Positions 25,749 to 63,443 of a DNA stretch of 64,000 nt are shown one piece after another (positions within the stretch are counted from its first letter, which is position 1; every line of letters begins with the position of its first letter). Both the position numbers and the translations under genes were made by a program. This DNA is from Chloranthus sessilifolius (taxonomy: Eukaryota > Streptophyta > Magnoliopsida > Chloranthales > Chloranthaceae), in contig CM037585.1 in NCBI GenBank assembly GCA_021018995.1, positions 127,128,831 to 127,192,830 on the forward strand, written 5' to 3'. Under the pieces are notes generated by a model that was given only the letters and a program-made list of their open reading frames with translations, made no database searches and was not told the DNA's origin.

Positions 25749-25783
25749 GAACCATCCGTGATGATTGCTATCATCGATGGTTC
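25749..25783 (+). promoter_or_regulatory. Conserved LTR stem-loop (B, 5' copy)
   Basis: Outer stem GAACCATC/GATGGTTC (8 bp), a small bulge, inner stem GATGAT/ATCATC (6 bp), loop TGCT. The same structure occurs at the same LTR place in B 3' (38665-38699), A (39535-39571, 49812-49848), C (37707-37746) and D (53595-53635, 63197-63237), with compensating pair changes. Possible roles: RNA packaging or dimerisation, 3'-end formation or a protein site. Confidence 0.7.
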
Positions 25784-25988
25784 GGATCGGTTCTCCATTC
25801 ATGCAGAGGCATGAGGGTAGAACTGTCTTTTGGGGAGTTGCTTAGCATAGATTTAAATTCTGAAATTTCGTGTATTATTCTATTGCATGCTTGATATACC
25901 AATGTTCCGTGCTTAGCAAAGGGGCACGGTCAAGATGATCGTGCTGATGGCACAGGTTTTGGGGTGTCGAAATCCGGGCTGTCACAGT

Positions 25989-31204: not shown

Positions 31205-31915
31205 TTGGGCAAAACCGATTAATCAAATTTCAAATCGATTAATCGATTTGGAATTTCGATTAATCGATTTTGTTCGAGGATCGGAAATTGAAATGAGAGT
31301 TAGAACAGACATAGAACGCAATTTCGATTGATCGAGTTATAATTTTGATTAATCGATTTGGAATCGATTAATCGATTTTGGGAATTCGATTAATCGAACA
31401 AACTGGGAATGTTAGAAGAATTGGGAGTGAATTAATGAAATTTCGATTAATCGAAGCAGTGTCGACTAATCGATTTTGGATTTCGATTAATCGAACTGGA
31501 CCTCGATTAATCGATTTACTAAAGGGACTTGGAAGAAATTGAAGTCAGATAGACGATTTCGATTAATCGATTTTGAAATTTCGATTAATCGAAATGGATT
31601 CGATTAATCGAATAATTTAAGAATTACGAAATTTAGAAGTTATGCGATTTATTTCGATTAATCGAAGTGAAATTCGATTAATCGATTTTGGAATTTCGAT
31701 TAATCGAAATGGATTTCGATTAATCGACTGGCTCGCGCCAGTGAGCTTTAAAACTTAAATTTTTAAACGGATACGATTTTGATTAATCGAAATCTTTTCG
31801 ATTAATCGAATTTAACTTTCGATTGATCGATTTGGGAAATCGATTAATCGATTTTACGCGGCTTAACCTAGTTTTGAATCTCGATTAATCGATTCTGGAT
31901 TTCGATTAATCGAGC
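31205..31915. repeat. TCGATTAATCGA array upstream of aORF in B
   Basis: Roughly twenty copies and variants of the palindrome TCGATTAATCGA between pol and the aORF promoter, with an ACTGG-N6-CCAGT motif at 31728-31743. Same word as in the LTRs of A and B. The array ends a few bases before the TATA box. Confidence 0.92.
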
Positions 31916-32138: not shown

Positions 32139-33687
32139 ATGCCGCCCAAAACCTGGTTGTCTTCAAAGAAGGCAACCTCTAAGCTCCCGGTTCGGCGTAA
32201 GAACGCCGCACCACCACCACCTACCCCATCGCCGGTGAGGACTCCATCACCGTCGGCATCGGAGACCACCTCCGGTTCGACGAGCGCATCCTCACGCGAG
32301 TCTTCCCGCGAATCGACCCCAATGCCCCCACCACCCACTAACGTGGTGCAACCAAACGAATGGTGGGCGGCAAAGACCTTTGAGGTCGAATATATTATCG
32401 ACCCTACCCTATTCACAAATCCCGATTTGTCGGGCGAGACCCAATGGGCTCGAAACTACCTCAACAACGCCGGTCTTGGCAATCTTCTCAAACCAATCCG
32501 GGGTTCTTACTACCCTAGGTTGGTTAGATTATTTTACCAAACGTGGTTAAGACCACCATAGAGGGTCGGGAGTACATAATCTCCCGTCACCACATACACG
32601 AGGTACTCGAATATTACCTCGATTTCACCCCAGAGACCACCCTATTCCCACCCTTCGAGGAGGACCCTCGATTTGAGGAGGTCATGACCCGCATGACCAA
32701 TGGCAAGAAGGGGTCGGGCTCCTCCATAAAGAGAGTTGACCTTCCCCACTATATGTGGATGCTCGACTCGGTGATAAAGTGCAATCTTTACCCAATGCGC
32801 CACGACACCGAGCGCGTGGACAAAGTGCAACAGGCACTTTATGCGGCCTTCTGTAGCCGATGGTTTGATGCTACTATGGTCATCCTAGAAGGGATGAGGT
32901 ACATCAAAGGAAAGCTGATGAAGGGCAACATGCGGCCCAAGGAGAAGATGCCATATGCTCGGCTCATCTCGAGCATGTTGGAGTGTTACTCCAATGATCC
33001 CTCCTACAGCATCTCGCCTCACGAGGTGAGGGCTACGGATCGCGCGAAGACGTTTTCGAAGTTTTCATGGACCCGTAGCTACAATTTATTAAAGCGGACC
33101 CTATCGGCTCCGGGTCCCGCTCCGGTAGCAGCAGCAGCAGCGGTAGCACCGCCACCACCCCCACCACCTCAGCAGGACCCACCCATGGGTGGGGCACACC
33201 CTATCCCCGCTGAGCCATCCGTGGAGAGGGTTCCCTCTCACACCGCAGCCTCACCGACGCCACCTACCCACTCCGCGCCCGCGACACCCACCTCATCCTA
33301 TCACGGGCGCCGCATCATCCGGGCCGAATTATCGAGGAGGTGTTGGCCGGTATGGAGGCCAACAACGAAAGGATGAACCGGAGGATGGACTTCCTTCTCT
33401 TTCACACCCTCCGCCACATCTATCCTACCGACTACCGCCGCTACCTCGCCCAAGAGGAGGAGTGGACGACGACCTTCCACAGAGGACCCGTCTTCCATCC
33501 CACCACTGCAGACGCGGCTCCTTCCACATCTACCTGCTCACCGAGACGCCAGCCATCCATCACTACCAAAGACATGGTCTCCACCACCGCTACCACACTG
33601 CCCAGAGACCACACCCTCAGCAGCACACCAGGCAGGGGACTATCTGTGTCTTGTATTTATTTTTGCATTTTGATTGTATACCTGTAG
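32139..33687 (+). pseudogene. Extra ORF (aORF) of B, frameshifted
   Basis: Sense-strand extra ORF between pol and the 3' LTR. The first frame (32139-32561) has a basic start (MPPKTWLSSKK), a Ser/Pro-rich linker and the domain onset (NEWWAAKTFEVEY, YYPRLVRLFY). A deletion near 32540 shifts the frame, and the domain continues at 32543-33376 (KRVDLPHYMWMLDS, HDTERVDKVQQALYAAFCSRWFD, EKMPYARLISSMLE, WTRSYNLLKRTL). A Pro-rich stretch follows, and a second shift near 33330 moves the C-terminal charged helix (EANNERMNRRMDF) to a third frame that ends at 33687. The domain order resembles the plant retroelement extra ORFs annotated as putative plant transposon protein; that match is from memory. Function unknown. 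Confidence 0.85.
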
Positions 33688-33910
33688 ATTTCTTTTGTAC
33701 GCCAACTTATTTGGCATTGTAAAAATTTTCAATTATTAATACAAATCAAAGTTTTTGTATAAATTGTTCAAATTCGTCAACTTTAAATTCTATGCCGGTA
33801 TTGTAATTATCTGAATGCGTCTGAGTCTACTCGACCACCTCACCTGCAAGTGTGGGGGAGAGACCAGACACCATGCCTTGGGTTATTTTCGAGGACGAAA
33901 ATTCCCAAGG

Positions 33911-33919: not shown

Positions 33920-34524
33920 TGTAATAGCCCGAAAAATCACGCTAAACTATGACCTCGGGATCCGTGCCCGATCGGTCACAGGTTTGACCAATTAGGAGTT
34001 CGATAGTTAGCATTGAGTGTGATGAGCGATTGAGATGTGATGGGTTGAATGTGTATATGGTGTGTGTTGTAAATGTGAAGTCGCATACACCTATCGCGGT
34101 GTATGTGCTCAACACACAAGAGAGGAAAGAGATAAAAGGGTTTAATAAACCCTAAAATCTGAAATTGGTTGTTGAGAGAGGAGTAAAGAAGAGAGAGAGA
34201 GGAGTAAAGAAGAGAGAGAGAAGAGTAAAGAGATTAAACAAGAGTTATTGGGTGATTGGGGGTGGGAGATTCAAGCATTAAAGAGACCGATTCAACGCAA
34301 GGAATCCGTTCAAGCAAAGGCTGGAACCCTAGCCTTTCCAACCACTCGATTGAAATCAATTTGAGATTGATTGAAGGTAAGATTTTTTATAATTTAAATG
34401 CATAGATTAGAAGGGTGAATAGTGGCTAGAAATGTTGTGAAATGTAGAACAAAGGGTTGGAAAAATGAGAGGAAAAAAAGTGTGGAAAAAGATTGGGAAG
34501 AACAGCTCGAAAAGGGCTGAATCT

Positions 34525-35010
34525 GACAATTTCGATTAATCAAAATTGGGTTTCGATTAATCGAAATTGGCCAGGAAGTTGAAAAGTCAGAGGACCCCGA
34601 TTTCGATTAATCAAATTGGAGTTCGATTAATCGACTTTGGATTTCGATTAATCGATTTGGGTATCGATTAATCGACTGGGAACCTCCAGTGGACCCAAGG
34701 GGGGCTGGAGGAAATGATTTGGGAAAATCGACTAATCGAAATGGGATTTCGATTAATCGATTTCAATTTTCGATTAATCAATTTGGGATCGATTAATCGA
34801 TTTTAGGAACTCGATTACTCGAATTGAGAATCGACTTGGCTGAACAGAGAATTTTGATTAATCGAATTAGAATTCGATTAATCGAATGAGAATCTCGATT
34901 AATCGATTTGAAAATCGATTAATCGATATGGACTTTCGATTAATCAATTTTTGGAATCGATTAATCGAATCAGATTCGATTAATCGATTTTGGAGTTCGA
35001 TTAATCGGCT
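34525..35010. repeat. TCGATTAATCGA palindrome array, B 3' LTR
   Basis: Counterpart of 24080-24550 with one additional unit near 34545, and several copies decayed by single C-to-T or G-to-A changes (TCGATTAATCAA). Confidence 0.9.
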
Positions 35011-36060
35011 GAGATAATTTATGTTGACCTTTGAGTTTGACTTTAAGATTCTTGGAGGGTCTTAGACCTTCTTTATTGCATCATTTGTGATGTGTTTCAC
35101 CTGTTATGTGGTACCATAGGTGGTACGTGTGAACTAGTGCACAAGGAGCCACGTGGGACCTTGGTGCAATGATCAAATGAAGACTTGGGGTAGGGAACAC
35201 CTTGAACATGTACTTTATTTTACAAGAGCATGTATGTAGTGATATATAATTTAAATTCAAATGTTTTATTGCTTAAGAATTGTGAAAAGTGTGTGTGTGT
35301 GACATCCATAAGAGTAAGTATAATGAGCCATCCCCAGGGGATGATGAAGTGAAGATATAAGAGCATCAGGTGTGATGCAAGTAAATGGATACATCCCAGG
35401 GATGTATCCAAGATTGAATCATGTTTGATAGGGCCTAACTGATATAAGATAGCGCACTTACACGGTGAATAACTATATGTAAGGCACCGATATTGTAAAG
35501 ACCCGTATTTTGAACCCGAGTTAGACTGACCCTGTGTGTGTATTCGCCTCGGCAACCGACGTCACCATTTGTTTTGGATTTTTATCTAGATGTGATTGTG
35601 CGGACAGATTTTAATTTAGAGACCATTTGGACCCTCGTGCGAAAGTTGTGCACCGACCTCGGTGTAGCCGCTCAACACCGGACTTGAGTTTTAAAATTAG
35701 AAGTGTATAATACATAAGATGTGTGTGTGTGTTTTACTTTGTGAGCAATCATATTATAAGAAGGAATTGCATTCCCGTATTATACTAGGTTTTGTTAAGA
35801 GAGGATAGTTACCCAACCGTGTGAAACTCCTTCTTCTCTCTTCTTCAATCATCGTAGGAGATCGGTTTAGAAAACCTCCTTCTCTAGAACCCTCTTTGTT
35901 GAAAACACTTAAACCTTAGAAAGAATTTGAATCAACCTTGGATTCGTAGTTGGCTATTGGGAGAGGTTGAGATCATTGGGGGCGTGTTGGAGTTGTCTCT
36001 GTGAACTCGTGGGATCGATCGCGACGCGAATCGTTGAGGAAACCCATCGGTTTTTATCAT

Positions 36061-36690
36061 CGCTCGAGCAAGGTATCACCGAACTCCGACATTGCCTTAG
36101 TATTTTAGTCATAACTTTATATTCCGAACTCTGATTAAGACGATTCTTTTTGCGTTGGAAAGCTAATAGAAAAATCTACAACTTTCCTGTTTTGACCAAC
36201 TCATGAATCAATCGTCTTGATGGTTAAAAAAATATGAGAATGTTACGTCAAATAGCTCGAGCAAGCTATTATCATCGCTCGAGCGAGGTATCACCGAACT
36301 CTGATATTACCTTAGTATTTTAGTCATAACATTTTATACCGAACTCCGATTAAGACGATTCTTTTTGCGTTGGAAAGCTAATAGAAAAATCTACAACTTT
36401 CATGTTTTGACCAACTCATGAATCAATCATCTTGATGGTCAAAAAAATATGAGAATGTTACATCAAATCGCTCGAGCGAGCTATTATCATCGCTCGAGCG
36501 AGGTATCACCGAACTCCGGCATTGCCTTAGTATTTTAGTCATAACTTTTTATCTCGAACTCCGATTGAGACGATTCATTTTGCGTTGGAAAGCTAATATA
36601 AAAATCTACAACTTTCATGTTTTGACCAATACATGAATCAATCGTCTTGATAGTAAAAAAAATATGAGAATGTTACGTCAAATTCTAGGA
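36061..36690. repeat. 215-bp tandem repeat with CGCTCGAGCG palindromes in C
   Basis: Three direct copies start at 36061, 36276 and 36491, an exact 215-bp period, the third slightly short. Each begins with CGCTCGAGC(G/A)AGG, and a second copy of the palindrome precedes the second and third units. This occupies the LTR interval that holds the palindrome array in A, B and D. Confidence 0.9.
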
Positions 36691-37504
36691 TTGGCGCAAC
36701 TTGCCTGTTTTGACTTGTTTTTGAGGAAACACTTAAATAGGTCTATATTATTAGTAATTAGAGTTTATCTTTGAACGTATAGTTGTGATATTGGACCTTG
36801 CTTGACTATAACTCAGTTTTAGGTAGGAGAATCTCATCTTTACAAAGATTTTATTTTAATTTATGGATATTTTAAATTAAAATCTTTGAACTTGCATATG
36901 CCATTGAAATCACATCCAGAAATTGAAATTGATATGAATGACTAAAAATCTAAATCTACGAATCTCAAAACTGAATCGCTTAAGCTCAAGATCAAATCAA
37001 GAACCTTAACTATGTATAAGAGACTTCCATCGATTATATTAGTATACGCATTTGTTTTATGATTGACTAACGACCCCTCAAAATTCTGAACAACTTCGGT
37101 ACAGTTTCCCTCATTACGCAGGGCTTGTTGTATACGAAAAGGGTTCATGAACGACGATGGTAGGTAGGGGTTCCCATCGGCTATATTCCTGCTCTCGAGA
37201 TATAGTTTACTCGGGAGGTATTTTAAGTTGAGGATTAAGTCATGAATTACTGAACTTTGCATATAGAAGTTAGAGAAACTAAGACACTGAAATACTGCAT
37301 CTGTTCTTGAAACTGTTTTCACACATTTAGAAATAAATCTTACATATGATTTATGCACCTAAATTCAGTTTATTATCTGCTTATATGTTTGACAAGCTAT
37401 ATTCCGATATTTATTTTGAAACCATGTTAGTTAAAGTAAAATGCCGTAGATGTCTTTCTTCTACTGAGCTTTGTTGGTTAGCTCACTCCGACTATACGTC
37501 ACAG

Positions 37505-37605
37505 GTTCAGGTACTGACGTGGCTATTCAGGGCTGTGAGACTGATCCTGACTACGTGCCTGAGGAAGAGCTTGAGGTTCCTCCTGAGGAGTTTTTCCCAG
37601 TATAG
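37505..37605 (+). other. Conserved short open exon in LTR C
   Basis: After ACGTCACAG|, two leading bases, then an open frame to a TAG. The peptide is acidic and contains DPDYVPEEELEVPPEEFF, clearly related to the A exon. Confidence 0.5.
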
Positions 37606-38907
37606 AACTTACTGATTTTCTTATTTGTGGTGAGAGTTAGACTTGAATTTGTGGGCTCATTTTAGTTGGATACCATAGTTTTATATTTGACGTTGATTTC
37701 TGTTATGAGCCATGTTTCGATGATGGTTGGCCATCATCGGTGGTTCTTTACTTTTAATTGCTTCCGCATTTATTTTAGCTATGGATATTTATTGCGCTTT
37801 ACTCTGATATGTGCCCTATTTGTCCGGCTTATCGTTTATTCGATAGGTTGGCGAACTGGTCTTTCCTATACCTGAGGGATTGGAAAAGTCGGGTCGTCAC
37901 AGATATTTTTGTTATTTGAGGTTTGATAGGTTACCCCACCGACGTGGCGGGATATCCACGACTGACACGGCAGGATATCCGTGACCGATACGACGGCGAA
38001 ACCGTAGGCCAGTGCGGAGGCTTATCCGTACACAGTAAGCACACCCCATGGGTGTTGAATTGAGATAAGTGAAACCCCGCCACCAATCCCCAGGGGAAAG
38101 GGGCTTGGGTACTATATTTGTATTCCCAAAAAATACGTTAAAAGTGTCTATATAGATGACGATGAAGGGTATCTCATCGGGGCTCGATGCTATATTGCTC
38201 GGGGATTACTTAAGTTGAAAGTTTAAGTTTTGCTTTAGGCCTTTTCAGCATCATTCATGAGTAAATGAAAACATAAGTAATCAACAGTAATGAAATGCTT
38301 TTTAACAGTTTTCATCAATAACTGCATAGACACATCATGCATGGCATATCATGGAATATATGTGAGTAATAATTTATATGTTCAACTGTGTTTGTTCCCT
38401 ATTGAGCTAGGATGTAGCTCACCCTATAGACTATACGTCGCAGGTCCACTACTAGCAGCTGCCGAGGCTTCAGGAGACGCTGACCCCGGTGAGTCGGACC
38501 TTGCAGCCGGTGAAGAGTTGGAGCCACCTCCTGAGGATTTCTTCTAGAGGACTCCGTTGTGCCACTTTGAGGGCTTTTTGAGAGAGTTTTGTACGGCTTG
38601 GTATGTCAAGCTTTGATTTTGTTTAAACCATGTATATAAGGAGTTGGGATTATTCCTTTGGGACGAACCATCCGTGATGATTGCTATCATCGATGGTTCG
38701 GATCGGTTCTCCATTCATGCAGAGGCATGAGGGTAGAACTGTCTTTTGGGGAGTTGCTTAGCATAGATTTAAATTCTGAAATTTCGTGTATTATTCTATT
38801 GCATGCTTGATATACCAGTGTTCCGTGCTTAGCAAAGGGACACGGTCAAGATGATCGTGCTGATGGCACGGGTTTCGGGGTGTCGAAATCCGGGCTGTCA
38901 CAGTAAG

Positions 38908-39786
38908 CACATCCCAGGGATGTTGAGATGAGTTTTAACCCCGTCGCCTAGTGAGAAAGGAGCTTGGGTCGTATTCCCAGGGAATACATTTTTACAACTG
39001 TCTAATTAGATGACGATGAAGGGTATCTCATCGGGGCTCGATGATATATTGCTCGGGGATTACTTAAGTTGAAGATTTAAGTTTTGCTTTAGGCCTGTTC
39101 AGTATCATTCATGATAAATCAACAGTAAAGTAAGGCCTGCTAACTACCAGTAAACTTGAATGCAATTCATCAGATTTAAACTGTTTTTCTAGCAAAAGCA
39201 TAGACACACCATGCTTAGAGTATCATGGAATATATGTGAGTTTTAACTTATATGTTCATTGTGTTGTTCCCTATTGAGCTAGGACGTAGCTCACCCTTTG
39301 CACTATATGTCGCAGGTCCACTGATAGCAGCAGTTGAGGCTTCGGGAGACGTAGATCCGGGTGATTTGGATTACGTGCCTGGAGACGAGTTGGAGCCTCC
39401 ACCAGAGGACTTCTTCTAGGAGACTCTGCTGTGTACTTTGACAGAGAGTAGTTTTTGAGAGCTAGTTGTACGGCTTGGTATGTCAATCCTTTATTTTTTA
39501 TAAACATGTAATTAAATTGAATTATTCTTTTGGCGAACCATCTGGGGTGATCTGTTTATCACCGATGGTTCGGGTCGGTTCTCTGTTCATGCAGTGGCAT
39601 GAAAGTAGAACTGTCTTTTGCATATGCCAATTGGGCATATTAACTATTTCCGTTTTATGAAATTATTTGCTTTAATTTATTTAATTGTGCTTGTTATACC
39701 AATATTCCGTGCATAGTTTTGGGGCATGGTCTGGAGGATCGTGCTGATGGCACGGGTTTCAGGGTACCAAAATCTGGGCTGTCACA
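38908..39786 (+). repeat. Element A 5' LTR, part 2
   Basis: Resumes after B's TSD at CACATCCCAGGG and ends GCTGTCACA. With part 1 the LTR totals about 2,546 bp, against 2,526 bp for the 3' LTR. It holds the short open exon at 39316-39419 and the stem-loop at 39535-39571. Confidence 0.93.
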
Positions 39787-39788
39787 GT

Positions 39789-44849: not shown

Positions 44850-45545
44850 AACCGATTAATCGATTTTCAAATCAATTAATCGATTTGAGAATTCGAATAA
44901 TCGATTTTGGTCGATTAGTCGACTGGCATGTGCCAGTCACTGAAAATTGGAACAAGGTTCAGAAAAATGACAAAGTGGAATTTCGATTAATCGATGTTGG
45001 TTTTGATTAATCGAGTAACATAAAATTTTAGAAGAACTTGAAGGATTTTTATATGATTTCGATTAATCGAGGAAGAATTCAATTAATCAATTTGGAGTTT
45101 CGATTAATCGAACTGGAAGTTTGATTAATCGAGTAACTTAATGAATTTAGAAAATTTTGAAGTATGATATACGATTTCGATTAATCGAAGTGAAATTCGA
45201 TTAATCGATTTTGAATTTCGATTAATCGAACTGGGGGTTCGACTAATCAGTAACTTAAGGATTTTTTTGAAAAAAAATAAAATTTGGAAGGACTGCACGA
45301 TTTCGATTAATGGAAGTGAATTTCGATTAATCGATTTTGAAATTTTGATTAATCGACTGGCTCACACCAGTGAGCTCTAAAACTTAAAACTTTTAATGGA
45401 TACGATTTTGATTAATCGAAATGGCTTCGATTAATCGATTTTGAGTTTCGACTAATCGATTTTGGAAATCGATTAATCGATTTTGCGCGGCTTAACCTAG
45501 TTTTGAATCTCGATTAATCGACTTTGGAAATCGATTAATCGAGCC
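44850..45545. repeat. TCGATTAATCGA array upstream of aORF in A
   Basis: About twenty copies and variants of TCGATTAATCGA, with ACTGG-N6-CCAGT motifs near 44924 and 45357. Directly followed by the TATA box. Confidence 0.92.
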
Positions 45546-45551
45546 GGGGCC

Positions 45552-45562
45552 TATATATATAA
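45552..45562 (+). promoter_or_regulatory. Internal TATA box for the A aORF
   Basis: TATATATATAA, about 200 bp before the aORF start, in the same context (GAGCCGG(G/A)GCC) as in B. Confidence 0.7.
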
Positions 45563-45752
45563 GTCGAAGGGGAATTCTCCCCACTCGAAATCAAATTACT
45601 TTTTATTTTTTTGCGCGCCTTGCTCTCTTCTTCTCCAAGCGGCTTGAAGAGCTAGGGTTTTGGGCATTTCGAGTCGATTTCGGAATGAAATCGCGCTACG
45701 TTGAGTCACATACCTAAGGTAAAACCCTAGTTTTTGTGAAATTTTACCTAAA

Positions 45753-47249
45753 ATGCCACCTAAAAAGCGGTTGTCTTCGAAGAAGGCAACCACTAAACTC
45801 CCAGTCCGGCGTAAGAACGCCGCACCGTCGGCATCGGAGACTACCTCCGGGCTCGACGAAAGCACGCCTTCGCCGAAGTCTTCACGCCGAAGTTCACTCA
45901 TGCCGCCACCACCCACTAACGTACTTCAACCCAATGAGTGGTGGGAGGCTAAGACCTTTGAGATCAAGTACATTATCGATCCAACCCTATTCACCAACCC
46001 CGATGTACCGGGCGAGACCCAATGGGCTCGTAACTACCTCCAAAATGTCGGTCTCGATAATATTTTGAAACCAATCCGGGGTTCCTACTACCCGAGGTTG
46101 GTTAGACTGTTCTACCAAGGGCTAACGGACGGCCCTACCGACGACATTATTTTGACCAAAATAGAGGGACACGACTACACATTCACCCGTCGCCATGTCC
46201 ATGAGGTACTTGAGTGTTACCTCGACTTTAATCCCGAGACCACCCTCCTTCCACCCTTCGAGGGGGAGGTAAGATTCGAGGAGATCATGACCCGCATGAT
46301 CAACGGGAAGAAGGGGTCGGGATCCTCCATTAAGAGGGTCGACCTTCCCCACTACATGTGGATGCTTGATTCGATAAACAAGTGCAACCTTTACCCACTG
46401 CGCCACGACACTGAGCGTGTAGAGAAAGTGCAACAGGTACTTTACGCGGCCTTCTGTGGTCGTTGGTTTGATGCAACGATGTTCATCCTAGAGGGGATGA
46501 GGTACATCAAGGGCAAGTTAATGAAGGGCAACTTGAGGCCCAAGGAGAAGATGCCTTATACTCGGCTCATCTCGAGCATGTTGGAGTGTTACTCCGACGC
46601 TCCCGAGTACGCGATATCGCCCCATGAGGAGAGGGCAACGGACCAAGTGAAGACGTTTTCGAACTCTTCATGGAGCCATAGTTATAATTTTCTTAAGCGG
46701 ACCCTACCGGCTCCGGGTTCCGCACCAGCAGCAACAACAGCACCGCTAGCACCACCACCACCCCCACCACCACATCAGGACCCACCCATGGGTGGGGCAC
46801 ACCTAGTTGAGCCACCAGCAGAGGGGGCACCCTCCCATACCACCGCTTCACCTACGCCACCAGCGCAGTCCACGACAGCTACACCTACTTCTTCCTATCG
46901 TCGGCGAGCGGCTCGCCCAGCTCCGACGATCGAGGACGTGTTGGCCAGGATGGAGGCCAACAATGAGCGGATGAACCGGCGGATGGACTTTCTAATATAC
47001 CACACCATGCGGTACATCTATCCGTTGGACTACCACCAGCGCCTAGCTCAGGAGGAGGCGTGGACAGCAGGTCGGACTGCCTTCCATACGGGTCCAGTCT
47101 TCCACGCAGGTACCTCTACAGCCAACGCATCTGGCTCGGCGCCCCAGCAGCCCGAGAAGCCACCTGAGATGGAGACGACCCAGCCAGAGCCACCAGTCCA
47201 GCCAGAGCCTGCTCCGGCACGAGATCAACCAGGAGAGGGGACGGCATGA
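45753..47249 (+). CDS. Extra ORF (aORF) of A, intact, 498 aa, unknown function
   Basis: An uninterrupted 498-codon ORF between pol and the 3' LTR. ATG start, MPPKKRLSSKK; the aligned B start supports it. Regions: basic, Ser-rich N-terminus (residues 1-50) that could be a nuclear signal; a globular domain (about 60-320) with NEWWEAKTFEIKY, YYPRLVRLFYQGL, KRVDLPHYMWMLDS, HDTERVEKVQQVLYAAFCGRWFD, KEKMPYTRLISSMLE and WSHSYNFLKRTL; a Pro-rich linker (about 325-400); and a charged helix (EANNERMNRRMDF, about 405-445) likely to be a coiled coil. The D homologue keeps the same motif order despite strong divergence, which suggests protein-level selection. No catalytic motif recognised. It resembles extra ORFs of plant gypsy elements annotated as putative plant transposon protein. 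GC content is higher than in pol. Confidence 0.85.
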   Translation: MPPKKRLSSKKATTKLPVRRKNAAPSASETTSGLDESTPSPKSSRRSSLMPPPPTNVLQPNEWWEAKTFEIKYIIDPTLFTNPDVPGETQWARNYLQNVGLDNILKPIRGSYYPRLVRLFYQGLTDGPTDDIILTKIEGHDYTFTRRHVHEVLECYLDFNPETTLLPPFEGEVRFEEIMTRMINGKKGSGSSIKRVDLPHYMWMLDSINKCNLYPLRHDTERVEKVQQVLYAAFCGRWFDATMFILEGMRYIKGKLMKGNLRPKEKMPYTRLISSMLECYSDAPEYAISPHEERATDQVKTFSNSSWSHSYNFLKRTLPAPGSAPAATTAPLAPPPPPPPHQDPPMGGAHLVEPPAEGAPSHTTASPTPPAQSTTATPTSSYRRRAARPAPTIEDVLARMEANNERMNRRMDFLIYHTMRYIYPLDYHQRLAQEEAWTAGRTAFHTGPVFHAGTSTANASGSAPQQPEKPPEMETTQPEPPVQPEPAPARDQPGEGTA

Positions 47250-47537: not shown

Positions 47538-50063
47538 TGTAATATCTTGAAAAATTGTGTTGAACAATGACCTCGGGATCCGTGCCCGATTGGTCACAGG
47601 TTTGACCAAGTGGAAGTCTACAAGTGACTCGAGAGTGATGAACGGATATGATGTGAATATGATGTAAGTGTGTGGAGTGTAATGTAAATCTGGAGTTGCA
47701 TACACCTATTTTGGGTGTATGTGCTTAACACCAAGACAAGGGGGATATAAGGGTTTAATAACCCTAAATTCATTATTTTGGGTTGTTAAAGAGAGTTAAG
47801 AGAGAGAGAGAAGTAAAGAGGGTTGTTGAACAAGAAGTAAATGCAAGCTAAGGGAAGGGGATTCGAGCAATAAACGCCGGATTCAATGCGAGGGATCCTT
47901 TGAAGCCAAAGCTGGAACCCTAGCCATTCCAACCTTGTGATCCAATCAAATTGAGATTTGATTGAGGTAAAATTTTGGTGAATTAAATGCATAGATCATA
48001 GAGGTTTAGTTGTAGTAAAAAATACTTAAAATCATAGGATAAAGGCTTAGAAAAAGAAAGAGAAATTGTTGAGAATGATTTGGAAGATCAGCCCGAGAGG
48101 GGGCTGAATCTGACCAAATCGATTAATCAAAATTGGAGTTCGATTAATCGATTTTGGTCTGGAAGTTGAAAAGTCAAGTAAGCCCGATTTCGATTAATCA
48201 AAATTATTTTCGATTAATCGATTTAGATTTCGATTAGTCGATTTGGAAATCGACTAATCGACTGGGTACCTCTAGTGGCAGGAGAAACAAGACCTGAGAA
48301 AATCGACTAATCGACTTGAGAAATCGATTAATCGATTTTGGATTTCGATTAATCGATTTCGAACTTCGACTACTCGATTTAAGAATCGACCATGCTATGC
48401 CAGGAAATTTGATTAAACGATTTGGGATCGATTAATTGATTTTGTGTGTCGATCAATCGATTTTGGGAATCGATTAATCGATTTGGGTTTCGATTAATCG
48501 ATTTTGGGAATCGATTAATCGATTTTGGCAGACTCAGTTGACTTTTGAATTTTTCTTTAAGATTAAGGGAGGGTCTAGGGCCTTCTTTGTTACATCTTTA
48601 GTGATGGATTGCATGTGTTATGTTGTACCATAGGTGATACGTGTGAGCATGAGCATAAGGAGTCGCGTGGGACCTTGATGCTTGGAATTTTAAAGACTTG
48701 AGGTAGGGAACACCTTGAACATGTACTTTAATTTCAAGAGCATATATGTAGAGATATAATTATTAGATTTGAAGTTGTTTTAACTATAAAAAGCTTTGTG
48801 AAAATGAGTGCGTGTGTGACACCAAGAATGTGATAAAGGCATCGGTATGATGCAAGAAATTAAGAACAGTAGTCTAATGAGATTGAGACATCCCCAGGGG
48901 ATGAAAAAGTAATAAAGGCATAGATGTGATCCGGGTATGTATACATCCCAGGGATGTATATGTATATACAATTGAATAATTACTGTTGAGGCCTAACTGA
49001 TGTAAGATAGCACACTTACACGGTGAACAACTATATGCAAAGCACATGATATTTTTATTATTTGAGTTTTGATAGGATACCCCACCGACGTGACGGGATA
49101 CCCACGACTAACGCGGCAGGATATCCGTGACCAGTATGGCGGCCAATCCGTATACCAGTGCGGAGGTTTATCCGTAACAGTAAGCACATCCCAGGGATGT
49201 TGAGATGAGTTTTAACCCCGCCGCCTAGTGAGAAAGGGGCTTGGGTCGTATTCCCAGAGAATACATTTTTACAACTGTCTAATTAGATGACGATGAAGGG
49301 TATCTCATCGGGGTTCGATGCTATATTGCTCGGGGATTACTTAAGTTGAAATTTTAAGTTTTGCTTTAGGCCTGTTCAGTGTCATTCATGATAAATCAAC
49401 AGTAAAGTAAGACCTGCTAACTACCAGTAAACTTGAATACAATTCATCAAATTTAAACTGTTTTTCTAGCAAAAGCATAGACACACCATGCTTAGAGTAT
49501 CATGGAATATATGTGAGTTTTAACTTATATATTCATTGTGTTGTTCCCTATTGAGCTAGGACGTAGCTCACCCTTTGCACTATACGTCGCAGGTCCATTG
49601 ATAGCAGCAGTTGAGGCTTCGGGAGACGTAGATCCGGGTGATTTGGATTACGTGCCTGGAGACGAGTTGGAGCCTCCACCTGAGGACTTCTTCTAAGAGA
49701 CTCTCCTGTGTACTTTGACAGAGAGTAGTTTTTGAGAGCTAGTTGTATGGCTTTGTATGTCAAGCCTTTATTTTTTATAAACATGTAATTAAATTGAATT
49801 ATTCTTTTGGCGAACCATCTGGGGTGATCTGTTTATCACCGATGGTTCGGGTCGGTTCTCTGTTCATACAGTGGCATGAAAGTAGAATTGTCTTTTATAT
49901 ATGCCAGTTGGGCATATTAATTATTTCTGTTTTATGAAATTATTTGTTTTAATTTATTTAATTGTGCTTGTTATACCAATGTTCCGTGCATAGTTTTGGG
50001 GCACGGTCTGGAGGATCGTGCTGATGGCATGGGTTTCGGGGTATCGAAATTCAGGTTGTCACA
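47538..50063 (+). repeat. Element A 3' LTR
   Basis: 2,526 bp. Palindrome array at 48115-48535, short open exon at 49593-49696, stem-loop at 49812-49848; ends GTTGTCACA. Candidate splice donor GAG|GTAAAA after 47966. Confidence 0.94.
48115..48535. repeat. TCGATTAATCGA palindrome array, A 3' LTR
   Basis: A dozen or more copies and variants. It lacks a unit present in the 5' LTR near 22630-22670. Confidence 0.9.
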
Positions 50064-50068
50064 GTTTC

Positions 50069-51326: not shown

Positions 51327-52074
51327 TGTAACGACCCCGAAAATTAGAACACGTGCCTGACTGCTTTGATCCGCGTGCCCGGCGCGGAAACCGAGGTTAA
51401 TTTAAAAACTTTAAGGTTATATTAATTTAAATAATGTGGCACCGTGATGAGATGAGATCACGTGTGAAATTTCGTTTAGATCTGAGACGCGTAGAGGGTA
51501 GATGGAACACGTTGCGCAGAAGCAACTGTGTTCATACTTCACACCGGAATAGACACCAAGGGCAAAATAGAAATTTTGCTCGAGAGAAGTAGCTTATAGA
51601 GGAAGGATGGGGAGACAAGGGAAGAGAGACTTCATTCCCTCTTCTCCTTCATCACCTTGCCCTGTGTGCTCCATAGATTGGAGATTGATGCTAAGAAGTG
51701 TGAAAGAAATCATTGAGAGAGAGAAGAAGAAGGGTTAGCAAGAGAGAAGAGGAGAGATTCTAAGCTAGAGGAGCTAGACCTAAGGGTTTGAGTTACCTAG
51801 GGTTTGAGATTGTTGTGAGAGACCACGATGCATTGAACCAGAGCCGAGGAATTTCTCGCCGAATCCAGGCCGAAGAGAGATCTAGGTTTTGGAAACCCTC
51901 TTTTCGGGTCATTCGAACCCCAAGAGACCCACGTACAAGGTGAGTTGTGTGTGTTAAATAAGGTTAAATGAGTAGTTTAAAGGGTAGGTTTATGATGTAT
52001 TAATGGTGATTGCACAACCATTAATGGAGAGAGAGCAAAAATGGAAGGAAAGGTGAACTCCATTAATGACAGCT

Positions 52075-52510
52075 TTTGTCATTGGTGATCGATCACCAAG
52101 GTGGTGATCGATCTGATGAGTTAGTGATCGATCACCAAGGGTGTGATCGATCAATCATATAAGTTTATAGGAACAGAGAGTTGAAGTTGAGGCCGAGGGT
52201 GGTGATCGATCACCAAGGTGGTGATCGATCTACAATGAATCGGTGATCGATCACCAAGGTGGTGATCGATCTACAAAATGTTAGTGATCGATCACCAAGG
52301 TGGTGATCGATCAATTTGTATAAAATTTATGTGACGAGAGGGGAGTTTTGAAGCTTCGTGGTGATCGATCACGGTGGTGATCGATCTACAAGCTGATGAT
52401 CGATCTACAAAATTTGGTGATCGATCTACAAAAGTGATCGATCTACAAAGGTGGTGATCGATCTACAAAAGGATGATCGATCTCGATGGGTGGTGATCGA
52501 TCACTCACCC
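52075..52510. repeat. TGATCGATCA palindrome array, D 5' LTR
   Basis: About fifteen copies of GTGATCGATC followed by ACCAAG or TACAA. Adjacent units often form larger inverted pairs with 11-bp arms (GATCGATCACC and its complement) around AAGGT. Confidence 0.9.
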
Positions 52511-53342
52511 TCTTTTACTGTCTTGAATTCATGAAGTAGACACCGGATATTGTCTTGGGTAGTTCTCTGACATTCCTAACACTTAATGTCTTTGTGCATA
52601 TGGTATAGGATAAACCCGACACGTCGAAAAAGCTTTGGATTTGCTTAGAAGATAAACTGATCGAGGTAGGGAAAACTCAATTTAAGTGCATCTAGATTTA
52701 ATTGCATGATATCTTAACATTGTATTATATCTACGATTTTCGAAAGCATGCATATGCATTAAACTCGATTCCGTATTCGATATCTTTTACATTCTTTGCA
52801 TATGCTCGATAATGCTTTCGATAATCACGATATTACGCTTTCGATAATCGATTCATGAGGTAATAAGTATGTATTTGATTTGAGGTTTAACATTCGACGA
52901 TCCCCACCGACTCGGCGGTATATCCGCTTTCTTGCACAATGTGCGCTTGTTTGAAAATCCTAATATATGCACTCCATGTGTGGGCATTATTGCATTCTCA
53001 AAATTGTTCATTGAACGACGATTGGTTGGGGTTTCTATCAAGACAATCGCTACCACGTGATATATATACACGGGAGTTACTTAAGTTAGAGATATGTATG
53101 ATTTAAGTCATTTAAATCTAATAAGCACAGCATCTTGCTAATTCCGGAGTTCAGTTTACTTTTGCCAGTTATGCATTCTGATTTCCTGCATGTTTGAGCA
53201 TCAATCTATATCTGTTCAGTTTCGTTTCACTTGTCGATCTAAGATATGTTCTGCAATCATGTTTAATAATTTAGATGTAAATTAATTGAAATTCTTCTAC
53301 TGAGCTAGGATGTAGCTCACCCTGCTTTCTGAAATCTTTTAG

Positions 53343-53452
53343 GTTACGAGGTGCAGCGTTCGATCGAGAGCGATCCGGATTATCAGCCGGATCCCGAGGC
53401 CGAGGCAGAGGACGAGGAGACGGACGTTCAGGCGGACGAGTTCTATCCTTAG
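53343..53452 (+). other. Conserved short open exon in LTR (D)
   Basis: After AAATCTTTTAG|, two leading bases and then an acidic open frame (DPDYQPDPEAEAEDEE) ending DEFYP-stop. Same phase and position as in A, B and C; the sequence differs but the acidic/aromatic C-terminus is kept. The 3' LTR copy near 62942 is disrupted. Confidence 0.5.
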
Positions 53453-53854
53453 CCTGGGTATTGATACCCGATATTTTGTACTTTTGATCTTTTGGATTTA
53501 CTGTGTGCCTGGTGGCCACCTTTGTATAAACATATGTAGTTCTACCTTTATTTATTTCATGTTAGTCCACATTCCATTTCGGAACCACTATCGGGAACCA
53601 TTGTTTGGGTGATGTACGTCCATCACCGATGGTTCTTCCTGGTTCCTTTTTGGGAATGTGTATGTTCTTCCTTACATTTAAATATTGTTGACGTGTATTT
53701 AGTATAGAAATTGGTTGACCCCGACTACAGCTGCTCGGATGTGTCCACCTAGCTTCCGCTATACGCGCGGATACGTGTGATCGATCCGGGATCATCCAGA
53801 GTATGATCCTAACGGAGTTTACGGAAAGCGGAAATCCGGCCGCATGTACTGATT

Positions 53855-58929: not shown

Positions 58930-59075
58930 GCACGTGATCGATCTACACCAATTGGTGATCGATCTACAAGGACCGTGATCGATCTACACCTTGGTGATCG
59001 ATCAATGAATCGAGTTGAACTTAAAGATTTTCGGTGATCGATCACCAAGAGGCCGTGATCGATCACCAATGGGAC
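58930..59075. repeat. TGATCGATCA array upstream of aORF in D
   Basis: Six copies of GTGATCGATC(A/T) within about 145 bp, followed directly by the TATA box. Same word as in D's LTRs and different from A and B. Confidence 0.9.
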
Positions 59076-59082
59076 GTTGGGT

Positions 59083-59090
59083 TATAAAAG
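59083..59090 (+). promoter_or_regulatory. Internal TATA box for the D aORF
   Basis: TATAAAAG, about 200 bp before the aORF ATG, right after the palindrome array. Confidence 0.72.
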
Positions 59091-59284: not shown

Positions 59285-60717
59285 ATGGGACCACGCACGA
59301 AGAATCCTTCGCGTAAGGTACCCACATCCCGCCTGCACTCTCGCCTTCTATTCCAAATCCCCCGCCGTCCGTGCCACCCATGGCACCGGCTTCGACCTCT
59401 ACCCCGCCCGTTCCCGCATCCGCATCGCTCACTATCGAGCGTGAAATCCCCAACACGTGGTGGGCTTCCAAAACATTCCTACCGGAATACGTTTTTGTGT
59501 CCTCACTATATGAGGACCGACCCGAAATGGCTTGGGCCAAGGGTTACATACAAAAGCTAGGGCTTAAACCCCTACTCGCGCCCTTCCATGACCATTACTG
59601 CCCACGTATTGTGCGGCTTTTCTTTCAAAACCTCAAATGGGGTGATAGTCGCCATCGACTCGTCACCACCATCGATGGCCTTGAGTATAAATTTAACCAT
59701 TTTCATGTCGCGGCGGCACTTCAATGCTCGTCCGCGTACCTCGAGACCAGTGGCCTCGAGCCTCCGTATGCCGATGTGGTCGCCAAGATGACCCAAGGCC
59801 AACACGGTAGGGGCCAATCCATTTCTAGGGCCCAACTACCTGACCGGTTGTGGATGCTTGATACCTACATCAAGTGTGCCCTCAACCCTTTCCTGCACAA
59901 GTCCTCACGGACTGGAGTAGTGCAACAAGCACTATTCTCTGCCTATGAGAACCGTTGGTTCTCTATGGCAGATCTGGTCATTGATGGCATCATAAACGCC
60001 AATGACCTGATGTCTGAGAAGGCGTCTGGGCAGAAACAGATCCCCTATGCACGCCTCGTCACCAAGCTTGTGGAGCAGTATGCTGCTCTACGCGAGGCCT
60101 ACGTTTTGGCTCCCCAGGAGCCTCGTTTGACCAACAACACTAGGGTCTTTCATCTGAAAGACTGGACAAAGAGCTACAATTTGTTGGTTAAGCGTCTTCC
60201 TGAGGAGGAGGAGGGCGCTGGCCGAGCCTGTTCCCCTGCAGAAAGCGAAGGTTCACCCTCCAGAGCGAGGTTCGATGCGCCGACTACAGAGGGCGAGACA
60301 CCACAGGACCTACCACCCGGCGAGCCATCCGCCTGACCAGCCCCTATTCCACCCGTCGATCGTCACACGCACCACCCTCCCCACCGTCTTCCTCCGACGA
60401 CGTCATGCGATGCCAGCGAGGTGGTGGAGAGCAACCGCCGCATCCACGTGAGACTAGATGGGGTTGAGGCGTTCCAGCGACAGATGCATCGTCGTCTGGT
60501 CTCTCACGCGGGTATGCATGAGCTAGTCATGCAAAGACTCTATGCCACGCCCACGTCCGCGCGATTGCACGCCCGCCTACAGGTGGATCCACGCGACTAT
60601 CATTCACCTCACGCGTCCCTGACGCCTGATCGATCACGCTGCCCATCCGATGCTCCCGCAGTATTACTGCATCTACTATTGCTTATTAGCCATTTATATG
60701 TACACGTATCTCTCTAA
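59285..60717 (+). pseudogene. Extra ORF (aORF) of D, two frame breaks
   Basis: ATG near 59285 (MGPRTKNPSRK), frame lost near 59350. The main domain is open at 59371-60336: NTWWASKTFLPEY, CPRIVRLFFQNL, RAQLPDRLWMLDTYIKC, VVQQALFSAYENRWFS, KQIPYARLVTKLVE and WTKSYNLLVKRLP, each aligning with the A aORF in order. A Pro/acidic stretch follows, and after a stop at 60334-60336 the charged helix (VESNRRIHVRLDGVEAF) continues in a frame at 60421-60717. GC-rich compared with pol. Function unknown. Confidence 0.83.
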
Positions 60718-60911: not shown

Positions 60912-63443
60912 TGTAACGACCGAAAATTAGAACACGTGCACGATCGCTTTTGATCCGCGCGTCTTGCCTTGAAACCGAGGTTAATTTAAAAACTTTAAGG
61001 TTATATTAATTTAAATAATGTGGCACCGTGATGAGATGAGATCACGTGTGAAATTTCGCTTAGATCCTAGACGCCGTAGAGGGTAGATGGAACACGTTGC
61101 TAGAAGCAATCGTGTTCATACTTCACACCTATAGACACCAAGGGCAAAATAGAAATTTTGCTCGAGAGAAGTAGCTTATAGAGGAAGGATGGGAGACAGG
61201 AAGAGAGACTTCATTCCTCTTCTCCTTCATCACCTTGCCCTGTGTGCTCCATAGATTGGAGATTGATGCTAAGAAGTGTGAAAGAAATCATTGAGAGAGA
61301 AGAAGAAGGGTTAGCAAGAGAAGAGGAGAGATTCTAAGCTAGAGGAGCTAGACCTAAGGGTTTGAGTTACCTAGGGTTTGAGATTGTTGTGAGAGACCCC
61401 GATCACTGAACCAGAGCCGAGGAATTTCTCATGAATGCGTCGAAGAGGAGCTCCGAGATCTAGGTTTTGAAACCCTCTTTTCGGGTCATTGCCGGAACCC
61501 CAAGAAACCCACGAACAAGGTGAGTTGTGTGTGTTAAATAAGGTTAAATGAGTAGTTTAAAGGGTAGGTTTATGATGTATTAATGGTGATTGCACAACCA
61601 TTAATGGAGAGAGCAAAATGGAAGGAAAGGTGAACTCCATTAATGACTTTCTTTGTCATTGGTGATCGATCACCAAGGTGGTGATCGATCTCTGATCAGT
61701 TAGTGATCGATCACCAAGGGCCGTGATCGATCAATCATATAAGTTTATAGGAGCAGAGTTGAGAAGTTGAGGCCGAGGTGGTGATCGATCACCAAGGTGG
61801 CGATGCATCTACAATGAGTCTGGTGGCTGGTCCCCAAGGTGGGGATCGATCTACAAAGGTGTTGGTGATCGATCACCAAGGTGGTGATCGATCAATTTGT
61901 ATAAAAATTTATGTGGACGAGAGGGAGTTTTGAAGCTTCGTGGTGATCGATCACCAGCCGGTGATCGATCTACAAGGGTCGTGATCGATCTACAAAAGGG
62001 TGATCGATCTACAAAGGCAGTGATCGATCTACAAAGGCTGGTGATCGATCTACAAAGGCTGGTGATCGATCTACAGTGGGTGGTGATCGATCACTCACCC
62101 CTGCTTTTGCCTGTCTTGAATTCATGAAGTAGACACCCCGGATATTGTCGTAGTTCTCGACATTCCTAACACTTAATGTCTTTGTGCATATGGTATAGGA
62201 TAAACCCCGACGTCGAAAAAGCTTTGGATTTGCTTAGAAGATAAACCGATCGAGGTAGGGGAAAACTCAATTTAAGTGCATCTAGATTTAATTGCATGAT
62301 ATCTTAACATTGTATTATATCTCTGATTTTCGAAAGCATGCCTGCATATGCATTAAACTCTGATTCCCGTATTCTGATATCTGTTTCTGTTCTTTGCATA
62401 TGCTCTGATAATCTGCTCTGATAATCGCCTCGATATTCTCGCTTCATGAGGTAATAAGTATGTATTTGATTTGAGGTTTAACATTCAGACGATCCCCACC
62501 GACTCGGCGGTATATCCGTTTCTTGCACAATGTGCAGTTGTTTGAAAATCCTCGGCAATATATGCACTCCATGTGTGGGGCATTATTGCATTCCTGAAAA
62601 TTGTTCATTGAACGACGATTGGTTGGGGTTTCCTATCGGCACAAATCTGGCTACCACGTGATATATATACACGGGAGTTACTTAAGTTAGAGATATGTAT
62701 GATTTAAGTCATTTAAATCTAATAAGCACAGCATCTTGCTAATTCCGGAGTTCAGTTTACTTTTGCCAGTTATGCATTCTGATTTCCTGCATGTTTGAGC
62801 ATCAATCTATATCTGTTCAGTTTCGTTTCACTTGTCGATCTAAGATATGTTCTGCAATCATGTTTAATAATTTAGATGTAAATTAATTGAAATTCTTCTA
62901 CTGAGCTAGGATGTAGCTCACCCTGCTTCAAATCTTTTTAGGTTCTCGAGGCAGTGCACGTCTAGATCGAGAGCGATCCCGGATTATCACCGGATCCCGA
63001 GGCCGAGGCAGGACGAGGAGACTGGACGCTCAAAGTGACGAAGTTCTATCCTTAGCCCGGGTATTGATAACCATATTTTGTACTTTTGATCTTTTGGATT
63101 TACTGTGTGCCTGGTGGCCACCTTTGTATAAACATATGTAGTTCTACCTTTATTTATTTCATGTTAGTCCACATTCCATTTCGGAACCACTATCGGGAAC
63201 CATTGTTTGGGTGATGTACGTCCATCACCGATGGTTCTTCCTGGTTCCTTTTTGGGAATGTGTATGTTCTTCCTTACATTTAAATATTGTTGACGTGTAT
63301 TTAGTATAGAAATTGGTTGACCCCGACTACAGCTGCTCGGATGTGTCCACCTAGCTTCCGCTATCTGGATCGCGGATCGATCCTGATCGATCCGGGATCA
63401 TCAGTATGATCCTAGCAGTGCGGGTTTTAAGCGGAAATCGGCA
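60912..63443 (+). repeat. Element D 3' LTR
   Basis: About 2.5 kb. It matches 51327-53844 but with many one- and two-base differences concentrated at CG- and C-rich sites (for example 62325-62455 against 52735-52860). Palindrome array at 61660-62095, stem-loop at 63197-63237. Confidence 0.86.
61660..62095. repeat. TGATCGATCA palindrome array, D 3' LTR
   Basis: About fourteen copies of GTGATCGATC with ACCAAG or TACAAAGG tails; two units near 61800-61850 are corrupted. Confidence 0.88.

Follow-up and report, generated by a model that had tools for sequence, protein, structure and literature searches.

The window, i.e., the whole 64-kb stretch of DNA analysed, contains three LTR retrotransposons (A, B, and D) in which one palindromic word is arrayed in the LTR and again directly 5' of the TATA box of an extra ORF (aORF). 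Elements A and B use TCGATTAATCGA and element D uses TGATCGATCA. For the extra ORFs that plant LTR retrotransposons carry, an envelope role remains unproven, according to the available text of PMC2829016 and PMC11728184. If extra ORFs read element-specific palindromes, very abundant elements would carry their own transcription switches.

All features lie on the plus strand. The 5' LTR of element A is split by element B. Its first part (21828..23494) carries an array at 22407-22830, and its second part (38905..39788), in which a count of palindromic 10-mers revealed no array, is followed by the PBS TGGTATCAGAGC at 39789. The gap between pol and the aORF of A contains an array of TCGATTAATCGA (44852..45542) of 23 sites (at most two mismatches to the 10-mer core), 12 of them exact, mostly in steps of 20-21 bp. 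Ten nucleotides past the last 10-mer core lies TATATATATA (45552..45561), a putative internal promoter of the stop-free aORF of 498 aa (45753..47249), whose product has a basic N-terminus and a weak match to PF20167 (Transposase_32). The 3' LTR of A (47538..50065, its end being accurate to a few bases) again carries an array of TCGATTAATCGA (48119..48522). Element B, nested in the 5' LTR of A and flanked by the target-site duplication GTAAG, consists of a 5' LTR (23495..25988; array at 24088-24542), a gap array of TCGATTAATCGA (31215..31913) in which 18 of the 10-mer cores are exact and after which TATATATATA stands at 31923, an aORF region with broken frames (32139..33722), and a 3' LTR (33920..38904; array at 34532-35008) with an insert at approximately 35494-37898. 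Element D carries arrays of TGATCGATCA in its 5' LTR (51327..53811; array at 52086-52503) and its 3' LTR (60912..63414; array at 61663-62093). Its gap array (58935..59065) is short, with six sites, three being exact TGATCGATCA and three having the TGATCGATCT ending, in steps of 19-21 bp and one of 40 bp. A TATAAA (59083..59088), again a putative internal promoter, precedes the frame-broken aORF region of D (59285..60336), which is open over 59317-60336 (339 aa) with an ATG at 59285 in a different frame. A single TGATCGATCA is found inside the D aORF region, at 60627.

Chance as the origin of the arrays was ruled out. Allowing at most one mismatch, the whole window contained 109 sites of TCGATTAATCGA against 0.20 expected and 21 sites of TGATCGATCA against 0.10 expected, and in the same scan the gag-pol regions of the window elements were free of both words. 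When no word was preset, the commonest palindromic 10-mer was CGATTAATCG in the gaps of A and B, in both LTRs of B, in the 3' LTR of A, and in the first part of the A 5' LTR; in the LTRs and gap of D it was TGATCGATCA. When the complete window was scanned blindly for palindromes, the arrays of A, B, and D emerged together with one more, a 215-bp tandem near 36 kb; five shuffled windows contained none. Exact copies amounted to 5 and 7 in the LTRs and 12 in the gap of A, 14 and 12 in the LTRs and 18 in the gap of B, and 9 and 8 in the LTRs and 3 in the gap of D. Genome-wide, TCGATTAATCGA occurred 241,617 times, compared with 55 times for its reversed control. Among the papers searched, the letters of TCGATTAATCGA are printed in one, on Vibrio, and the name PF20167 likewise occurs in one.

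A search of the whole genome extended this layout to further copies and families. Of the 30 A-like copies, window A included, every one had the LTR array and 29 had the gap array as well; similarly, all five D copies carried theirs at both places. Family E, of the Ty1/copia type, uses CGGACGTCCG, present at both places in 30 of 33 copies (a count that leaves out L070, L073, L085, and L086), and the gypsy-like family F uses CTCGCGAG, seen in two gaps and one LTR, all decayed. Family G (L086), a single copy with a divergent aORF and examined at its gap, shares the core of the A word, so that words and readers do not pair strictly one to one. The word-by-family matrix, from which L085 and G were left out, was diagonal for A/B, D, E, and F: gaps and LTRs contained 3.3-27.9 copies of their own word per kb and 0-0.05 per kb of the other three words. 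Between the subfamilies D1 and D2, the letters flanking the word differed in the same way at LTR and gap. The sequence-only reading had proposed that A and B share one word between the LTR and the position before the aORF TATA box, that D uses another word at the same two places, and that the word thus changes between families while being common to both places within each; these claims held in the examined copies and extend to E and F. The outcome which that reading had named as refuting, a mismatch of words between LTR and gap, was absent from all examined copies with words in both, a few copies missing one of the arrays.

The carriers belong to different types of retrotransposons. Profile matches assigned the pol of A, B, and D to the gypsy type (RVT_1, RVP_2, and RT_RNaseH), the chromodomain of B being near the threshold (Chromo, E=2.3e-5, 24.7 bits, cut-off 25.1), and that of E, in the one copy examined, to copia (RVT_2, 6.4e-36). 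Family F has an integrase core, pieces of which matched the gypsy pol of the window at 1.6e-10 and 1.5e-4, compared with 8.5e-4 and no match in the comparison of F with copia pol. The ATHILA model PF03078 had no match in the genome, a result that carries no information because the control genomes likewise gave none. Several unrelated retrotransposons share a layout as if each encoded a reader of its own DNA.

For the three different words of A, D, and E, the distance between sites peaked at 19-22 bp; the sites of F were irregularly spaced. In all 29 A-like copies with an array in the gap, window A included, the last word was followed by a TATA box, at a distance of 10 nt in 27 copies, 12 nt in one, and 14 nt in one, which points to a putative internal promoter of the A aORF with a TATA box at a near-fixed place. 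Similarly, the boxes in the LTR of E stood directly before a TATA box in all 28 loci with a site. The LTR arrays of A had a TATA box within 60 nt in none of 30 copies, and TATA-like sequences occurred on both sides of the arrays in the LTRs of A and D. The TATA-proximal position is hence nearly constant in the A gap and the E LTR, although descent alone could maintain this.

An aORF of the PF20167 type is a common feature of the gypsy (A, B, and D), copia (E), and gypsy-like (F) carriers. The scores were above the gathering cut-off of 45 bits for E (L061, 63.4 bits) and F (L073, 53.3 bits) and under it for A (25.4 bits, significant at 1.5e-5), the piece of B (19.6 bits), and D (16.5 bits). Direct profile comparison of the E aORF gave a probability of 9.8% with A and 0.5% with D, so that E is tied to A via Pfam only. 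Profile searches recognised no DNA-binding domain in the aORF, and comparison with a structure database returned no significant relative of solved structure. The aORF evolves faster than pol, as A or B share 35-36% identity with D in the aORF and 63-80% in pol. The aORFs of A and B are 75% identical, yet have one common word, and a single word is likewise retained among E copies whose aORFs are 55-60% identical. The median dN/dS of the aORF was approximately 0.21 (ranges 0.14-0.37 for A and 0.08-0.73 for E), for a sample of long-open copies only (8 of 30 A-like and 15 of 33 E), which biases toward low values; the median excludes pairs with a dS of at most 0.02, one such E pair having a value of 2.78, and the median dS of E was returned as not-a-number.

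Given the arrays, their two places, the identity of the word within families and its diagonal distribution between them, the spacing, the conservation of word and aORF, the faster evolution of the aORF than of pol, and the PF20167-type aORF common to carriers of different types, each array may represent sites at which the protein encoded by the extra gene of that same element binds, a proposal that we consider evenly balanced. The aORF would have an internal promoter of its own, situated between pol and the 3' LTR, in the order array, TATA box, aORF, and its PF20167-type protein would return to the nucleus to read its own palindromes in the LTR and the internal promoter. It would probably bind as a dimer, since the sites are two-fold symmetric, along rows of sites set about two helical turns apart in promoter and LTR. 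Binding would have a positive outcome, either activating transcription, as foamy-virus Tas does, or removing silencing, as VANC does; in either case, a family with its own word would be switched on by itself only. If true, escape from silencing without waking other families could be tested directly with a few DNA words and proteins. Several findings count against such a reader: G shares the core of the A word, E keeps one word, the aORF has no recognised DNA-binding domain, its link between E and A runs via Pfam only, F spacing is irregular, and the A LTR array lacks a nearby TATA box, to which come the separate occurrence of boxes and extra gene in some published Sireviruses, the sharing of spacers in B, and the equal raw divergence of words and spacers in A described below.

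A first alternative is that the palindromes are read by transcription factors of the host, with a different host site captured by each family as an enhancer of its LTR and aORF promoter and the aORF playing a role elsewhere, e.g., envelope-like or as a silencing suppressor. The E word CGGACGTCCG includes GACGTC, which we take to be a bZIP-type core. Moreover, Bousios et al. (2010; PMC2829016) took the boxes of Sireviruses in this way, and their search of PLACE gave mainly sites of stress factors. In the available text of the same paper, four RM elements lacking the extra gene retain LTR boxes, and six elements carry the extra gene but no boxes, indicating that gene and boxes are separable. However, four unrelated words occupy the same two places, with a spacing of approximately 20 bp in three of the four families, so that a number of host factors would all have to share one geometry, and the other three words are essentially missing from a given family's gaps and LTRs. 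The host-factor explanation is hence possible, but less probable than an element-encoded reader.

A second alternative needs no reader, the LTR and gap arrays being matched by homogenisation at the DNA level (template switching, gene conversion, or slippage). The gap array of A aligns with itself at an offset of approximately 117 bp, and the gap and LTR spacers of B share 33 6-mers, more than in any shuffle (maximum 26). In A, D1, D2, E, and F, however, the words are shared and the 6-mer sharing of the spacers stays within the shuffled range, mostly above the shuffled mean, with few 6-mers and low power for D1 and E. Copying of an array from one place into the other is thus unsupported in these five, whose gap and LTR arrays do not resemble duplicates, and positive in B. 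Between A and B, gap-gap and LTR-LTR pairs of spacers have many 6-mers in common. Divergence between copies was compared after leaving out L029 for A, in which the gap array is absent, and L039, L051, L052, L057, and L062 for E. At non-CpG sites, the ratios of word to spacer divergence were 0.37, 0.55, and 0.52, the words thus changing at about half the spacer rate, with the interval for the E gap touching 1.00. At CpG sites, divergence was likewise lower in words than in spacers (ratios 0.67, 0.47, and 0.40), which may reflect a motif-dependent loss of DNA methylation but also fits selection. With CpG sites not split off, divergence in A was equal (0.0766 for words and 0.0745 for spacers in the gap; 0.0686 and 0.0699 in the LTR), as the words are CpG-rich and their conservation emerges only after the split. 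This lower divergence of the words argues against homogenisation, as does the near-constant position next to the TATA box in the gap of A and the LTR of E, though descent could suffice for the latter. Homogenisation is therefore already weakened and appears improbable.

Perfect palindromes of 10-12 bp without a loop would form poor hairpins. Hence, the idea that the palindromes work through CpG richness or through DNA or RNA structure (CpG islands or small-RNA hairpins), not as protein sites, appears improbable, despite the CpG in all four words and the small-RNA hotspots in palindrome-rich LTR regions of Sireviruses (available text of PMC5311732), as it also leaves the identical letters at two places unexplained.

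The preferred reading, an element-encoded reader, can be put in a more general form, which we hold tentatively and at somewhat short of even confidence: PF20167-type extra ORFs, some of them called envelope-like, would be self-encoded, sequence-specific DNA readers common to plant copia and gypsy retrotransposons, reading rows of palindromes spaced by two helical turns in the LTR and in their own internal promoter, with word change isolating families from each other and from host silencing. The sequence-only interpretation is partly supported overall. Its proposed co-divergence of motif and reader agrees with the change of words between families and not with the words shared by A and B, among E copies, and with G. 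Its statement that no such system had been described in Tekay-type elements agrees with the literature searched, in which none was found for Tekay; for copia, a counterpart was published in 2010 (PMC2829016).

This counterpart, the RM boxes of Sireviruses (Ty1/copia), clearly anticipates what is seen here in copia. According to the available text of Bousios et al. 2010 (PMC2829016), these boxes are palindromic, present in high copy in the upper LTR just before the TATA box and 5' of the ENV-like gene, and differ between elements, all of which except one have a CGG-CCG core; among 13 elements with boxes, linker boxes were present in all nine with an ENV gene and in none of the four without, and the published box of Usier is GTCGGACGTCCGAC. 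Family E, with its word CGGACGTCCG, looks to be of this kind. Boxes at the LTR and 5' of the extra ORF are likewise found in A-like (29/30), E (30/33), and D (5/5) copies. In contrast with the published boxes, given as Sirevirus-specific, the RM-like layout occurs here beyond copia, in gypsy elements A, B, and D and gypsy-like F, whose words lack the CGG-CCG core. In addition, the genes of the present carriers are linked by PF20167. The extra ORFs of sunflower Tekay elements have a predicted nuclear localisation, and the Athila ORF(+) partly matches PF20167; unlike the present aORF, that of sunflower Tekay is located 5' and had no match to known domains, and the term palindrome is absent from the main text (PMC11728184, as available).

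The window carriers are LTR retrotransposons, and their aORF product is a candidate reader. VANDAL elements of Arabidopsis are, in contrast, Mutator-like DNA transposons. Their VANC motifs, established by ChIP-seq and gel shift, have a single orientation and resemble the present words in being short, clustered in non-coding parts of the element, family-specific, accompanied by a TE-encoded protein, and subject to fast array turnover (available text of PMC5735166 and PMC10398659). The present words differ in being palindromic, a term absent from the available text of PMC5735166. For foamy viruses, which are animal retroviruses, the likeness to A, B, and D is one of layout, namely an internal promoter (putative in the window elements) 5' of the 3' LTR together with an accessory gene. 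The sites of Tas in the two promoters are not known to have a single palindrome in common. As described in the available text of PMC4929722, the internal promoter of the accessory gene lies before the 3' LTR, and the Tas protein binds both this promoter and the LTR. If the proposed reading is true, PF20167-type readers would be to retrotransposons what VANC is to VANDAL elements and Tas to foamy viruses.

Three LTR retrotransposons of the window (A, B and D) possess an additional open reading frame (aORF) between pol and the 3' LTR, and in each element one short palindrome, or word, is arrayed both in the LTRs and in the interval between pol and the aORF (the gap). This had been claimed by the sequence-only reading and was confirmed by a count of palindromic 10-mers with no word preset, which returned CGATTAATCG as the top palindrome of A and B and TGATCGATCA as that of D, in LTRs and gap alike. 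The second part of the split 5' LTR of A was the only LTR part without an array, and neither word occurred inside gag-pol of these elements. A blind palindrome scan of the whole window returned only the LTR and gap arrays and one unrelated tandem, at most 0.2 sites per window being expected by chance for either word. The most frequent step between neighbouring sites was 19-22 bp.

Element A comprises a 5' LTR split by B (21828-23494 plus 38905-39788), a primer-binding site (TGGTATCAGAGC; 39789), an open aORF of 498 aa (45753-47249) and a 3' LTR (47538-50065). Element B (23495-38904; target-site duplication GTAAG) is nested inside the 5' LTR of A, and its aORF, between pol and 3' LTR, has broken frames. 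An insert in the 3' LTR of B (35494-37898) holds three tandem 215-bp units containing another palindrome, CGCTCGAGCG. Element D extends from 51327 to 63414, with an aORF at 59317-60336 and an ATG at 59285 in another frame. Over aligned pieces, the two LTRs of A shared 94-96% identity, those of B 94-95% and those of D 91%. The gag, protease and reverse transcriptase (RT) are of the gypsy type; the name Tekay is a label from the sequence-only reading, and the chromodomain match in B (24.7 bits) is just below the Pfam cut-off of 25.1. An inverted pair of approximately 5 kb (6765-11831 and 16772-21827; 93% identity) has related pieces at 1-837, 50065-51327 and 63447-63640; copies of this repeat seem to have served as insertion sites for A and D.

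The same layout was retrieved elsewhere in the window's own genome (2.17 Gb). A search with the A aORF gave 86 scored matches from 54,969 first-look candidates. Flanks were obtained for 30 of these 86, including the window's A itself; CGATTAATCG ranked first among palindromes in the LTRs of all 30 copies and in 29 of the gaps, the remaining copy (L029) having no gap array. The D search gave 119 scored matches; D's word was present at both gap and LTR in all five copies examined (two of subfamily D1, three of D2), namely the window's D and four fetched ones. Furthermore, the A aORF matched Pfam PF20167 weakly but significantly (1.5e-5), and a genome search for PF20167 yielded 150 scored matches from 13,856 first-look candidates, of which 37 were inspected: 33 of a family E, two of a family F (L070 and L073), and L085 and L086. 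The ORFs of family E are 55-100% identical to that of L061, which exceeds the Pfam cut-off at 63.4 bits and has a Ty1/copia pol upstream (RVT_2, 6.4e-36), the sole E pol inspected. With one mismatch allowed, the E word CGGACGTCCG had at least two gap sites in 32 of the 33 copies, at least one site beyond the ORF in 31, and sites in both places in 30. Family F is gypsy-like, with an integrase core closest to the window's gypsy pol. Its gap word, CTCGCGAG, has seven exact sites in L070 and is decayed in L073; decayed sites also lie ahead of a TATA box in one fetched downstream stretch, interpreted as LTR. In both copies, the F gene region seems to extend about 2 kb past the PF20167 domain as proline-rich, partly broken coding sequence. 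L085 and L086 are known from 661-base pieces upstream of the ORF (for L086 also 159 bases of ORF). L085 carries six exact copies of E's word. L086 (family G; G000:C10:19400150-19400810) has a divergent PF20167 ORF piece weakly like D, F and A, and its 661 bases contain eight copies of A's core CGATTAATCG mixed with three of CGATGCATCG, with outer letters mostly C/G in place of A/T and several steps of 21-23 bp. This mixed array is possibly an intermediate between words.

In a matrix of A, D1, D2, E and F, drawn up before G was found, each group carried its own word at 3.3 to 27.9 per kb (one mismatch), against 0 to 0.05 per kb for foreign words among the four. Within the aORF itself, A and E were almost word-free (maximum 0.51 per kb, one-mismatch TGATCGATCA in that of A). 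A Ty1/copia pol of another element in the window (1458-5215; Pol_BBD, integrase, RVT_2) contained no exact copies of the four palindromes. Genome-wide, exact counts were 241,617 for TCGATTAATCGA (55 for the reversed word), 102,427 for TGATCGATCA (1,418), 11,252 for CGGACGTCCG (421) and 8,590 for CCTCGCGAGG (248). The idea that motif and aORF diverge together held in so far as the word differs among A, D, E and F. However, G departs from one word per family, combining A's core word with a divergent ORF piece, and E copies with aORF identity down at 55-60% have one word in common; the G case indicates that the relation is not strictly one-to-one. A protein reader would perhaps recognize TCGA half-sites plus flanks.

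Had the gap array been copied recently from the LTR array, matching spacers (the DNA between words) would be expected. Gap and LTR spacers of B did exceed shuffles (33 shared 6-mers; mean 14.6, maximum 26), but those of A fell within them (20; mean 13.6, maximum 26), and sharing in D1, D2, E and F was not above shuffles, with few 6-mers for D1 and E. As descent predicts, A and B had 81 spacer words in common between their gap arrays (shuffled mean 36.0) and 39 between their LTR arrays (7.5). Outside the GATCGATC core, ACC and TAC predominate in D1, AAT and AAC in D2, each subfamily keeping its own flanking letters at both gap and LTR. The pattern is real and recurrent in this genome, and copying is an unlikely cause. 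By raw count, words and spacers diverged equally between nearest copies of A. When CpG was split from other sites (disjoint pairs of nearest copies, bootstrap over pairs), words proved less diverged than spacers: the non-CpG word/spacer divergence ratio was 0.37 (0.23-0.54) for the A gap, 0.55 (0.36-0.76) for the A LTR and 0.52 (0.23-1.00) for the E gap; the CpG ratios were 0.67, 0.47 and 0.40, respectively.

Spacing modes were 20-21 in the A, D and E arrays. Steps of 18-23 bp made up 0.66 of the total in the A gap and 0.72 in the A LTR, 0.71 and 0.80 in D (fetched copies), and 0.48 in the E gap and 0.66 in the E LTR, the latter with a second peak at 16; F is irregular (1/17 in the gap, 0/7 in the LTR). 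In the A gap, all 29 array-bearing copies have a TATA box after the last word, at 10 nt in 27; in the E LTR it lies 11-15 nt past the word at all 28 loci having a site. TATAWA occurred within 60 nt in 10/29 E gaps and 0/30 A LTRs. Based on these counts, the arrays are clearly promoter-proximal in the A gap and in the E LTR, although the constant distance inside one family may reflect simple descent. By eye, the stretch ahead of the array in the LTRs of A (47750-47960) and D (61170-61525) shows a sequence resembling a TATA box, a leader that looks like an exon, and a possible splice donor, so that these arrays may be downstream of a transcription start.

The aORF median dN/dS was 0.21 (A-like) and 0.22 (E) among copies selected for long open frames. 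Between A/B pieces and D, identity was 63-80% for RT, RNase H and integrase, 37-45% for gag and 35-36% for the aORF. Relatedness is clear among the aORFs of A, D and F, with hhalign probabilities of 98.7-100; the E aORF is connected to them solely via PF20167, direct hhalign comparison giving no link (probability 9.8 against A, 0.5 against D and 18.2 against F). No DNA-binding domain was recognized in the aORF proteins, a result that speaks against a DNA reader. Those of A, D, E and F start with stretches rich in lysine and arginine (direct reading; for D, beginning at the out-of-frame ATG), as would suit proteins that enter the nucleus. The most economical explanation, to which we would give an even chance, would be that the aORF protein reads the palindromes. 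Somewhat more tentatively, PF20167-type extra ORFs might encode self-encoded, sequence-specific DNA readers in plant copia and gypsy elements.

A comparable arrangement is described by Bousios et al. 2010 (PMC2829016): Sirevirus LTRs carry palindromic RM boxes before the TATA box, found also upstream of the ENV-like gene; the authors found support for an internal promoter of ENV and turned to host factors. Four published Sireviruses without the extra gene retain the LTR boxes and six with it have no boxes, which counts against an aORF reader. Family E appears to belong here as a further member. Beyond the RM boxes as presented there, the window's genome has this arrangement in gypsy elements as well, where the words are different and the extra gene is linked to PF20167. 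No description of a gypsy version was found in the literature searched, which took in a minority of subscription papers; the novelty proposed for Tekay-type elements may hold for gypsy and yields to the 2010 report for copia. PMC4977677 refers to an internal promoter region of Athila6A, and a 2026 sunflower paper asks if LTR-element ORFs could shape methylation, citing VANC as an example (PMC12844716). Together, VANC (PMC5735166) and foamy-virus Tas (PMC4929722) give natural precedent for both halves of the proposed circuit, in which the aORF protein would bind its own element's palindromes.
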